Shown piece after piece: positions 21,701-27,700 of a stretch of DNA of 64,000 nucleotides. Both the position numbers and the translations under genes were made by a program. Location: assembly GCA_023974075.1 (NCBI GenBank), contig JAMFTG010000628.1:1-64000 (forward strand). Reading direction: 5' to 3'. The notes beneath the pieces are model-generated. The model was given only the letters and a program-made list of their open reading frames with translations, made no database searches and was not told the origin of the DNA. Within the stretch, counting starts at the first letter, position 1. Each line of letters opens with the position of its first letter. The stretch comes from Chaenocephalus aceratus (Eukaryota > Chordata > Actinopteri > Perciformes > Channichthyidae).

Positions 21701-24700
21701 TAAATTAAAACGTACTTCTGTCACGAAAAACAAAACATGAAACGATAATACTGGAAATACAGACCGGGGTCTTTTGAAGGTGAAACATGACACTTACTCA
21801 GTAATGAGGAAAATGCCAATGACGGAACCAGCAACCTGTAATGAAATGAGAAGAAGAGATATTTATTGCGAGTTAACATAGTTACAAAAATAAATGAGAT
21901 CAAAGGGTGTATTTTACCTCAATGATGAAGACGAAGACGATGAAGAACAGGACGTAGACTAAGCTCCTGTTGGTGGTGATGTAGCGCAGGTAAGTGCTCC
22001 ATGAGGTAGTTTCAAAGATGTTCTCACGCTCATCTGCGAAGCATTGCTGCGAGGAAACACAAATACTCGTTCACCGTACAGATACTATCAGTTACCTAGG
22101 GAACCAGACGAAGGGGTTTCTGCCACAAAATCAAGACCGTTTTTTTTGGGTTTCACAAGATAAAGACACATCAAGCAAATACTCCGCTTTGTTGTGGAAA
22201 CCCAAATATTGAAATGTGTCTTCTCATACTGATATCGTGTGCCTTAGGGTTCCGACTTGGTAAATATAGACTAATTGTGATTGTTTTGACTGCTACGGCG
22301 AGAGGGATCGATATTCACATTATCTATGAAAAACATACAAGGATCAAAACCTGTCCCCTCGTGCTACTTACACCATTGTGCCATTTGCAATTACAGTAAT
22401 AAAGTAGTAGTAAATTACACTTTAAAAAGAGCCTGGGACTTTCTTTGAGCGGCTGATCAGCTGCTGCTGGTAGTCCCTAAGACAAAGAGAAAGACCAGGG
22501 GAGACCGAGCCTTCTCAGCGGTAGCCCCCAGGCTCTGGAACGACCTGCCCCCCCCCCATGTCAAATTGTCAGCCCACCCTTCAAACTTTTAAGTCCCGCC
22601 TGAAGACCCACCTCTTTTCCCTCAGTTTGAGCTGTTTCATCGATTTGTATGCTTTTATTTGTCCGTCCATAGCCCTTATGTGCCTTTTATCTATTGTTGT
22701 GATATTATATTTTATTATAATGTTATGTGGCTGTAAAGCACTTTGGTAAAACCCTCTGTTTAAAAAGCTTTAAGGCCAGACTCCCCTGGCCTCACTGCAC
22801 TGGCTTCCAGTTCGGCTCAGAATAGATTTTAAACTCCTTTTATTTGTTTTCAAAGCCCTAAACGAGCTGGCTCCGGCCTATGGAGCCGAACTCCTCCATC
22901 GCTACACCCCAGAGCCTTAAGGTCTGCTGACCAGCTGCTGCTGGTAGTGCCCAAGACCAGGCTCAAAACCCGAGGGCACCGAGCCTTCGCAGCAGCGGGC
23001 CCCAGGCTCTGGAACACTCTGCCCTCCATGTGAGGTCGGCTCAGACCCTGGGAGCTTTTAAATCAACACTTAAAACTCACTTTTTCTCTCTGGCCTTCTG
23101 GGCTTCTCTTATCAAGAATAACTTTGACCCAGGACCTTTTCCCTCTCTAACCTCTCGAGGTTTATTAGAGGGACACGGTTTGCAGAGTGGCTTCGACAGG
23201 CCGGGGAGTGTTACGATTCGTAGACACAGCGTCCCTCCCTATCTCTCATCAATTTCCAACTAAGGCTCCAGTGGGGACCTTGTTCCCTGAGTGTGCCTCT
23301 CCACCTCTGGTTCTTACTCTCTCACTTGCTACCCTTTGCCCTCAACATATTCTCAGGGAGTGCTTGTTCTTCCGTCTGTCTGTCTGTCTCTCTGTCTGTG
23401 TCTGTGTCTTCTCTTGTCCCGATGAACCCAGCCACATTTCTTCTTGTCTTGTATCTATATCTACGCCGGGATCCGGAGTCGAGGCTGATCCTCTTGCTGT
23501 AGTCCTGTGTCTTGGATCCTCTATCCCGAGTTCTGGATTAAGTCGTGGACTTCGGGTCGTGGCTGAACCGGTCTCTGCGGTCCTGCCTGGGTCTCGTCAT
23601 GCTGCTTCCCTGATGGCTTCCTCAGGATTGTAGCTGACATCCTCGTGGATTCATCTTCTCATTACAGACACATGCATTTCCTAACATTCGGTCTATCTGC
23701 TGTAAAATATATTATCTCTTGGATTTACACACGGCATCTATTGCACGTGTGTCCGTCCTGGGAGAGGGATCCCTCCTCTGCTGCTCTCCCTGAGGTTTCT
23801 CCCATGTTCCCTTAAACTGTGGGTTTTCTCCGGAAGTGTTTCCTTGTGCGATGTGAGGGTCTAAGGACAGAGGGTCTAAGGACAGAGGGTCTAAGGACAG
23901 AGGGTCTAAGGACAGAGGGTGTCGTTTTTCTCATACTGATATTCTGAACAATCTGTGTTGTTGTATTTGCTGTAAAGTCTCTACTGTAGGCTAATTTTAT
24001 TTTATGTACAGCACTTTGGCTCGACCAAGAATCGTTTATAAATGTGATATATAAATAAAACTTGATTTGATTTGATCAAAGAACATCTTAGGTCACAGGC
24101 TCCTCCAACAGTGCAACACAATAACACAGATACAATAGTACAGGTAAATAAAGTAATATTGAATATAATAGAAACAGTGCAGAATAGTCTAAATACAAGT
24201 AATTGGAATATTGATGTATACGAGTTGCAAACAGATGAATGTTATGGATGTTCTTTCAAAAGTTTGTCATGGTTACTTGCACTTCTTCAACCTCGCTTTG
24301 GATCAAAATGAGTAGTGTAACAAATCTCTACCTCCATGTCCTCTTCGTCCACGTCGTCACTGATGTCGTAAACGCTGTCTTTGGAGAGGCGGCGGGCGTA
24401 GATGTCGAGCTCTGGCGCCAGGTCGCACTGCGGCGTGACGGACGTCTTCTTCCTGAAGGACGACTGCATGTGCTCGCGCCTCTCGTGGCCCTGAGGGTTG
24501 GTGATGAAGGCCAGGACCGACTGCCTGCGCTGCCCGTTGAGGTGCTGCAGCCCGTTGTGGTACAGGTTCCCTCTGGGGAGAACCTCCTCCACCTGGTCGT
24601 CCTCGGGAACCACGGAGAACTTCCTCTCTGAGAGCTCCCTCACACCGTCCTCTATGGTGGTGCTAGCAGTCTGTTGGGATCAGAGGTGGGAAGTAGTGGA

Positions 24701-27700
24701 GTACAAATACTTTGTTACTGTACTTAAGTTCATTGTTCTGGTATCAGTACTTTACTCCACGACTATTTACTTTGACTTCTTACATGTTGAACTCAAATAC
24801 CTGAACTTTCTACTTCTTACATGTTGAACTCAAATACCTGTACTTTCTACTTCTCACATGTTGAACTCAAATACCTGTACTTTCTACTTCTTACATGTTG
24901 AACACAAATACCTGTACTTTCTACTTCTTACAGGTTGAACTCAAATACCTGTACTTTCTACTTCTCTCATGTTGAACTCAAATACCTGTACTTTCTACTT
25001 CTTACATGTTGAACTCAAATACCTGTACTTTCTACTTCTCTCATTTCCCAGTTCCTTTAGTCTGAATGTGTGTTGGTGCGTGATCATTATTCTTTAGAGT
25101 CACTGCGTGCCTATTGATTGGAACACGATCCGTGTATCCATCACTTCCTGGTCTTCTCTAAAGAAGAGGGACCAATGGAAACGTTGTCATGTTGCCGTTG
25201 GTCACCATGGAAACATTCATTAGCTAACAATGACATTATTGTTCTATTAATATAAAGGGAGGTCAGGTACTCTTTAAAACAGCTGCTAGTTATGGGTACT
25301 TTTTACTGAAGTACACTTCAAAGCCTTTTTACTTTTACTTAAGTAAAGAAGTTTAGTCAGTACTTCTACTTTCACCAGAGTATTTTTAAACACGAGTATC
25401 TGTACTTCTACTTGAGTAAAGGATGTGTGTACTTTTGCCATCTCTGGTTGGGAGTTCCCGATGAAGGAGAACTTGCGAGCGGCGGCCAGAGGATTCAGGA
25501 TGAGGGATTGTTTGCGTTTCTCCGGGTACCCGTCACCTCCTTGGGATCCGTTAATGACAGGCGGCGGCTGCTGGCGGAACGACTGCCGGAGAGTTTCTGG
25601 TCCTCTGAAGCCGGCGGTTTCGTCGACGGAGACCCTTCGGAGGGTTTCCGTGAGGATGGAGCTGCGCCGCTCCGCGTTGCAGTTGTCGTACGCCTCCATG
25701 CCGAGGAGCAGGTTGCTGAAGTCGGGACGCTTGGCCTGCAGCTCGGAGAACGTCCCGTAGAAGAAGCAGTCTCCGTTGTGCAGCAGGAGGATCCGGTCCG
25801 CTCGCTTTAAATGCTCCAACTTGCTGGTGACCACGATGCGCGTCTTGGAGGCCATACGAGTGCAAACACATCTGTGAGACAGAAACGGGTTTATTACCAG
25901 GTTCACGCGTACGACGAATTTCACTTGGTGTCGTGGTGCATACATAACAATTAAGCAATAGCTCACGACAGGCCGTGGTATATGCTCATTATATCACAGC
26001 TAAGAACCAATCAGATTGCTTGATTTGACTTGTCCGTTTTATAATCAAAAATATATCACGGATAGCATACTATATTAAGAACACTGTAATACAAATACAT
26101 AGTACGATTAAATAGCAAGCGTGAATCCAAAATTAATGTATTTTCATTTATAAAAACGAAAAACAGAAAGATTAAGGTGTCAAATGTTTTAAAGAATAGC
26201 CACTTTAATTGGCTTTTAATCCAAATGTATTTATTCTTGTTGTTTCCGTCCTTTGTTTATTTAATTCTCAGGATTAGTTTTTTATTTATTTAGTATTTTT
26301 ATATATGTACAGAATGTATTTATAATCTGAACATAGTTAAACATGTTCCTGTATCGTTCTTGCGTTGCTATGTATTATTAAGGCTTTTTAATACTAATGG
26401 TATTGCTCTGAGGAATTGAGAGGGTCAGGTATTGTTTTCATTATTTATTTGTTGTATGGTTTTAGTTTTTGAAGCACAAAGTGTAAAAGTAAAGTGTGTG
26501 TCGGCACCTTGCCCCTTTTTAAAAGTGTTTAGAAAATATTAAGGCACGCAGTTTTGCAAAGACTTATTGACCACAAACTTTAGTATCAACTTTGTATTTG
26601 TTTTCTAAAGTGAAGTTTAATATATCAAAGCATGATACAGCAGTTTTATTTTATCCCATCTTTGAGGTTCATAGTTTACTTAATCGTGCATTTTAATAGC
26701 ATCATTGTTTTACTGCATTGATCATAACACCTTTACATCTTTAATATTGAATCTTTAATACTTGCTTTTGGGAAGTAGCACACCTCAGCTTATCTACTGG
26801 TATTCACTCTCTCCATGGAAGCTATTTTATTATCCTAATTAGTTCAGGTTCATCCAGCAGTGATCTCTGCATGCTTCCCTCCTCTGAAGGATGCCAAAGT
26901 CCACACATCATCAAAGCATAATTCCCTTTCTGCTCGCCTCCCGTTTCCTGAGAGGGTTCCAGTGTGTCTGAGACAACAACAGATAACCTTGAAGCTCCTC
27001 CACATGAAAGCCTCTCTGTTGGGATCGTACTCACTTCTCAAAGATCTCTTTCTCCGTCACCAGGTCCAGGTGTGTGAAGGGCGCGTCCAGCAGGTAGAGG
27101 TCTGCATCCTTATACACCGCCCTGAGGAACACACACACACAGGTGAGTCTGTAGGGAGGCGAGGGAAGTGTGTTTGGAGAGCACATTTCAACACGAGGCA
27201 ATTCAAAGTGCTTCACAAGATATGTTGCAACAGAAACACAAATACATCTACAAACATGAAACAAGCTAAATATAGAATGAGAAAGGTATAAAACACAAGA
27301 ATAACATGTTCAGAACGGTACTAAGCAACATGAAAACAAAGAATATACAGAAAACTGAACGTACGAGACGTAGAAAGAGAAGAACACCTAGTTGTGACTA
27401 AATAAATATACTTCACATTAGTATTTAGTGTCTCTACTTTAAAGAGTCCTCTCCTGCTGATGTTCAGGTGCATATCAGTATGTAGTGTCTCTACTTTAAA
27501 GAGTCCTCTCCTGCTGATGTTCAGGTGTATATCAGTATGTAGTGTCTCTACTTTAAAGAGTCCTCTCCTGCTGATGTTCAGGTGTATATCAGTATGTAGT
27601 GTCTCTACTTTAAAGAGTCCTCTCCTGCTGATGTTCAGGTGTATATCAGTATGTAGTGTCTCTACTTTAAAGAGTCCTCTCCTGCTGATGTTCAGGTGTA

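Follow-up and report, generated by a model that had tools for sequence, protein, structure and literature searches.

The origin of new introns is an old question, and only a few of the gains seen in vertebrates can be traced to a source. A locus of the icefish Chaenocephalus aceratus raises the question in concrete form: can a transposon that has landed in a coding exon be kept as an intron of a working gene? The window examined here (64,000 nucleotides; contig JAMFTG010000628.1 of assembly GCA_023974075.1, forward-strand positions 1 to 64,000) contains exons 3–27 of cftr on its minus strand with GT-AG sites, exons 1–2 lying beyond it on the same contig. Exon 14, which encodes the R domain and to our knowledge is a single exon in other vertebrates, is interrupted by a 766-bp non-autonomous transposon of hAT type. 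The insertion is very probably spliced out as a transposon-derived intron, with CFTR functional. This reading had been proposed in an earlier note made from the letters of the window; it is supported by a junction shared between the protein models of two genera and by purifying selection behind the insertion, from which we infer the splicing itself.

The element is bounded by short CAGAG-type terminal inverted repeats (CAGAGGTGGG and CAGAGATGGC, on opposite strands); CAGNG-type terminal inverted repeats are a motif of the hAT superfamily, and an element of 766 bp is too short to encode a transposase. The two flanking copies of the 8-bp target duplication match at 7/8 bases, confirming the earlier description of a hAT-like insertion in exon 14. 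The coding copy encodes part of N-S-Q, as found in many other fish, and the copy at 24673–24680 is taken as the mutated one. The copy deviating from the conserved coding sequence is also the one that would fall inside the intron, which supports the intron reading. Given further copies in the window and the genome, the exonic insert is a transposon and not a product of chance.

Translation continued from the exon into the element runs through 52 codons in the cftr frame before a TAG (25288–25286), where the earlier note had expected a stop near 25286. Its proposed removal of 24671–25432 was recomputed and leaves exon halves of 439 bp (25871–25433) and 339 bp (24670–24332), each of which matches CFTR by phmmer. 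Joined, they are in frame with a net gain of 12 nt, or four residues: one Q is swapped for PEMAK, to whose codons the target duplication contributes its final base and the element its first 14. The site lies between what we take to be the equivalents of S712 and S737, presumably two phosphorylation sites, in a linker that varies in length among fish CFTRs. Joining the flanks without the element gives an empty-site reading close to the GNSQQTANTPQSTTIEDG found there in Cottoperca gobio, and many other fish read similarly, with variable length. Near 24662–24670 (cftr strand) the icefish protein is without four residues, NTPQ of Cottoperca; because these are missing and the element adds a net four, the linker has the same length in both.

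The best CFTR matches were a C. aceratus protein (P0001) and one from Champsocephalus esox (P0002), both 100% identical over query residues 240–620. Both read QPEMAKTAS at the site, i.e., the junction 25433/24670. PEMAK was present in 2/131 retrieved CFTRs, comprising the best 120 of 602 significant matches and 11 new sequences from a second search, whose query was too short for full-length relatives and among whose matches there was no notothenioid. Proteins were seen as cluster representatives, P0002 standing for 10 member sequences. The element-encoded PEMAK in C. esox shows that this species carries the same insertion, which, being in both genera, predates the Chaenocephalus/Champsocephalus split. 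The model of Pogonophryne albipinna omits the residues around the insertion site, a weak hint that this site may also be interrupted. P0001 starts in exon 8 and contains a spurious exon and an off-frame C-terminal tail. One stretch of it corresponds to an open frame within an intron in the window (15188–14862, minus strand), which together with the off-frame C terminus probably reflects annotation errors. Iso-Seq data, protein evidence, and ab initio prediction all went into the published annotation of C. aceratus (PMC10522714); the locus prefix of P0001 is absent from that text.

Residues were compared in whole codons, exon by exon, excluding exons 1–2, exon-junction codons, and the surroundings of frame breaks; for exons 3–7 and 27b the comparison with P0001 is meaningless, as that model begins only with exon 8 and its C terminus is off frame. 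Behind the insertion, the window differs from C. esox at only 1/763 residues (4/668 before it). The corresponding figures are 25/752 for P. albipinna, including 12 in exon 23, which is incomplete in that model, and 7 in the part of exon 14 behind the insertion, and 63/715 for C. gobio, including 19 in exon 20, which is missing from the C. gobio model. None of the 28 translated exon pieces (exons 3–27) contains a stop codon. Were the element retained, the sequence behind 25288 would go untranslated and could decay freely. With neutral change in notothenioids set at 3.2E-3 (PMC13131655), read as a rate per site and million years (My), 10.7 differences behind the insertion are expected per My of separation; the probability of at most one is 0.00027 at 1 My, and a single difference fits neutrality (P > 0.05) only if the split occurred <0.44 My ago. 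The stop-codon test is weaker (at 2 My, 2.3 stops would be expected across the two lineages, and the probability of none is 0.10). These comparisons indicate purifying selection on the coding sequence downstream of the insertion in both carrier lineages, which would imply removal of the element from the mRNA.

Splice sites were scored with a vertebrate position matrix, not MaxEnt, and only ranks within the gene are used. Every one of the 24 cftr donors has GT and every one of the 25 acceptors has AG, in an exon model search that allowed only GT/GC donors and AG acceptors. The sites proposed in the earlier note fared unequally. Its acceptor is ordinary, as 6/25 real cftr acceptors score no higher (range 1.9–12.8), and its junction recurs in both models; its donor is weak and is outscored by another in-frame candidate (25375) 57 nt deeper in the element. 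Use of 25375, exclusively or in a mixture with 25432, would be a variant of the intron reading and not exclusive of it, adding 19 further residues and giving an R domain with about 23 extra residues in all. Real cftr donors span a range that includes its score, and the frame is open that far into the element; however, 25432 is the donor in both public models, which are not themselves read evidence. The support for removal of the element is good, that for a particular donor is not: we lean toward 25432 and regard 25375 as a possible but rather unlikely choice.

Several points weigh against the intron reading. The donor AAA/GTACAC (slash, splice boundary), with a score of 1.4, ranks under every one of the 24 real cftr donors (4.2–11.2), and branch-point-like yTnAy matches within 90 nt of the acceptor occur only at -74 and -10, neither of them ideal. 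The element was also inserted computationally at 696 positions of the empty exon, in both orientations and under four pairs of thresholds. An in-frame intron was possible at 71/696 positions in this orientation and 271/696 in the other (donor at least 1.4, acceptor at least 6.2), or 30–158/696 and 240–351/696 across the four pairs; donor 25432 fell just below 1.4 by rounding, and the site was counted through other donors. With an in-frame solution in 4 to 50% of simulated insertions, the arrangement alone proves little, and the idea that it is striking in itself was rejected. The junction in P0001 is no proof of reads, given the spurious exon in the same model; software that builds gene models has to get across the stop and could choose donor 25432 from protein similarity alone. 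Furthermore, the contig of the window (C628) has frame breaks in exon 8 (46052–46053) and exon 27 (near 656), no date for the Chaenocephalus/Champsocephalus split was found in the literature excerpts, and the evidence for the predicted intron consists of DNA sequence and protein models.

The weak donor and the frame breaks would suit a cftr inactivated by the insertion, a young pseudogene whose protein would end at 25288 upon retention of the element and whose stop the protein models merely bridge. The earlier note had named inactivation as the alternative to splicing, and we consider it very unlikely: selection behind the insertion in both carrier lineages (the single difference in 763 residues) and the stop-free exon pieces speak against it, as does the character of the frame breaks. 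A comparison of contig C628 (109,330 bp) with a second, allele-like contig (C621; 128,225 bp) gives 64 mismatches over 24,882 columns (0.26%; heterozygosity is 0.37% in another notothenioid, PMC13131655), as against 233 gap events, 218 of them of one or two bases and 80/218 of these at runs of at least three equal bases. Five exonic indel events were found (C628, exons 8 and 27; C621, exons 4, 5, and 27), none common to both contigs, and the published C. aceratus assembly has a quality value (QV) of 29.96 (PMC10522714). The frame breaks are probably sequencing indels, because they are unshared and gaps far outnumber mismatches; gene decay as the cause of the exon 8 and 27 breaks is disfavored, with 0/5 events in common. 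The exons in the 24.9-kb stretch hold 3 indel events where about 11 are expected, at odds with errors being spread uniformly; some of the gaps in introns may therefore be real or repeat-related. A real null allele may exist.

The small size of C628 and the QV of the assembly, if it is the published one, would also be compatible with a polymorphic or misassembled insertion, most conspecifics having an uninterrupted exon. This possibility, which the earlier note had kept in view, is extremely improbable. The insertion is present on both allele-like contigs, identical at 791/791 bp, and element-encoded residues stand at the same site in C. esox. Exon 14 was found at these two places only, and no exon 14 without the insertion was seen among the 31 scored of 188 own-genome candidates. 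Hardly more credible is removal by a noncanonical system rather than the spliceosome. In animals, “SOS splicing” is a system proposed to act on DNA transposons in mRNA by recognizing their paired ends, and inverted element ends do exist here. However, the predicted fold is without pairing of the two ends and only mildly more stable than shuffled sequences (z -1.87), and frame-keeping GT-AG sites are present; removal as a hairpin was rejected on the same lack of end pairing.

Under the preferred reading, excision by the spliceosome, a non-autonomous hAT transposon would have jumped into exon 14 before the two genera split, duplicating 8 bp. The pyrimidine tract would come from the far end of the element (cftr strand), and the 3′ splice site, ...ATCCCAACAG, from the duplicated target together with the two target bases that follow it; the near end would supply the 5′ splice site, most simply AAA/GTACAC after 14 element bases. 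The spliceosome would then cut out 762 nt, leaving the net 12 nt in the length-variable linker, and CFTR would keep working, so that the insertion could persist in both lineages as a new intron. The features concerned are collected in Table 1.

Table 1. Features of the transposon insertion in cftr exon 14 and related element copies in the window
Feature	Position	Strand	Details
hAT-type non-autonomous element in cftr exon 14	24681..25446	-	766 bp; CAGAG ends, 8-bp duplication, other copies
Target duplication, copy at intron 3′ end	24673..24680		GTTGGGAT; ATCCCAAC on cftr strand
Target duplication, coding copy	25447..25454		GTTGGGAG; CTCCCAAC on cftr strand
37-bp tandem repeat within element	24768..25039		7.4 copies
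First in-frame stop if element retained	25286..25288	-	TAG
cftr exon 14, 5′ part	25447..25871 (25433–25871 including element-derived codons)	-	phmmer to CFTR E 1.9e-48; exon model
cftr exon 14, 3′ part	24332..24670	-	phmmer to CFTR E 7.4e-31; exon model
Predicted intron	24671..25432	-	762 bp; 705 bp with donor 25375
Donor implied by both icefish protein models	25427..25432	-	AAA/GTACAC; score 1.4
Alternative in-frame donor	25370..25375	-	CTG/GTGAAA; score 5.5; 6/24 real donors score no higher
Candidate acceptor	24671..24690	-	CCCACCTCTGATCCCAACAG/ACT; pyrimidine-rich element end, target duplication, and target AG; score 6.35
Second element copy, in cftr intron 10, opposite strand	34702..36656	+	39.4 repeat copies; perfect 8-bp duplication TAAAACAA
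Third element copy, partial, at window edge, downstream of cftr	1..129	-	125/129 bases identical

Insertions of maize Ds, an element of the hAT superfamily, are reportedly spliced from exons, as mutant alleles in one plant species. The icefish case resembles these in its hAT-type element, 8-bp duplication, exonic position, and likely splicing from RNA. In contrast to mutant alleles of a single species, the icefish insertion is common to two genera and sits in a gene that appears to be under selection. Introners (PMC9860276) are likewise non-autonomous DNA transposons with target-site duplications and terminal inverted repeats; they become introns that draw their splice sites from element plus target, as is predicted for the icefish insert, and one Aureococcus family also adds four residues. 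Introners form families of 5 to over 2,000 copies per genome, whereas one exonic copy is shown in the icefish; by analogy, the icefish case would work like a single Introner. Introns of MC and P2Y receptors in ray-finned fish (PMC3151243) were similarly gained in genes that are without them elsewhere. These are old (320–190 My ago according to the authors) and their source element is unnamed in the excerpts, whereas the icefish transposon and its duplication are still visible.

A transposon-born intron is a rarely seen event among vertebrates. A 2012 review tables introns from transposon insertion in Oryza, Drosophila, Oikopleura, and Zea (PMC3443670), and the excerpts of a large Introner survey report no evidence for such a pattern of gain in vertebrates (PMC9860276). 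No earlier report of the present case was found in literature on icefish cftr, on notothenioid introns and hAT elements, or on intron gain from transposons, a search that left subscription papers mostly uncovered. It is likely that the R-domain exon of an essential vertebrate ion channel here holds a persistent, working spliceosomal intron derived from a DNA transposon. Two icefish genera at least would share it, and its sister copies, target duplication, and source element can all still be made out. If so, a young intron with source element, duplication, relatives, and a measurable channel current would make the birth, spread, and splice-site refinement of introns testable, in a host group that, according to literature excerpts, had a recent transposon burst.

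The element belongs to a high-copy, non-autonomous hAT-type family. Its three copies in the window are one exonic, one in an existing intron, and one downstream of cftr. A search of 1,064,297,438 bp in 3,032 contigs with a 791-bp query listed 84 matches (4,223 first-look candidates, 40 scored), and the 40 main scored matches are 93 to 100% identical across at least 672/791 query bases. Among six further loci examined, the target duplication matched at 7/8 bases at one (L005) and at 5/8 at two (L006 and L007), and both element ends were not located at the other three (L003, L004, and L008). The cftr copy and its neighbor copy differ at 12/394 tail sites and at 11/100 head sites, a comparison that is unreliable in the head, where the repeat boundary aligns badly, so that copy age is rough. 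The tail differences at the neutral rate given above correspond to ~4.8 My per copy, with wide error.

The genome also holds a partial 3′ duplicate of cftr, with exons 22–27 on contig C569 (50769–60032; exon 27 twice) and exons 22–26 on contig C666 (about 54400–60200); long alignments of it to unique sequence of the window show 0.7 to 2.7% mismatches. As a candidate for an uninterrupted paralogue it was rejected, being without exon 14 in the 70 kb read of each contig (129,039 and 124,789 bp). Within the window, two arrays of one 72-bp repeat lie in opposite orientation in cftr introns (29790–30665 and 38050–39284), and an array of a 57-bp repeat at 27420–28499 has relatives on other contigs.

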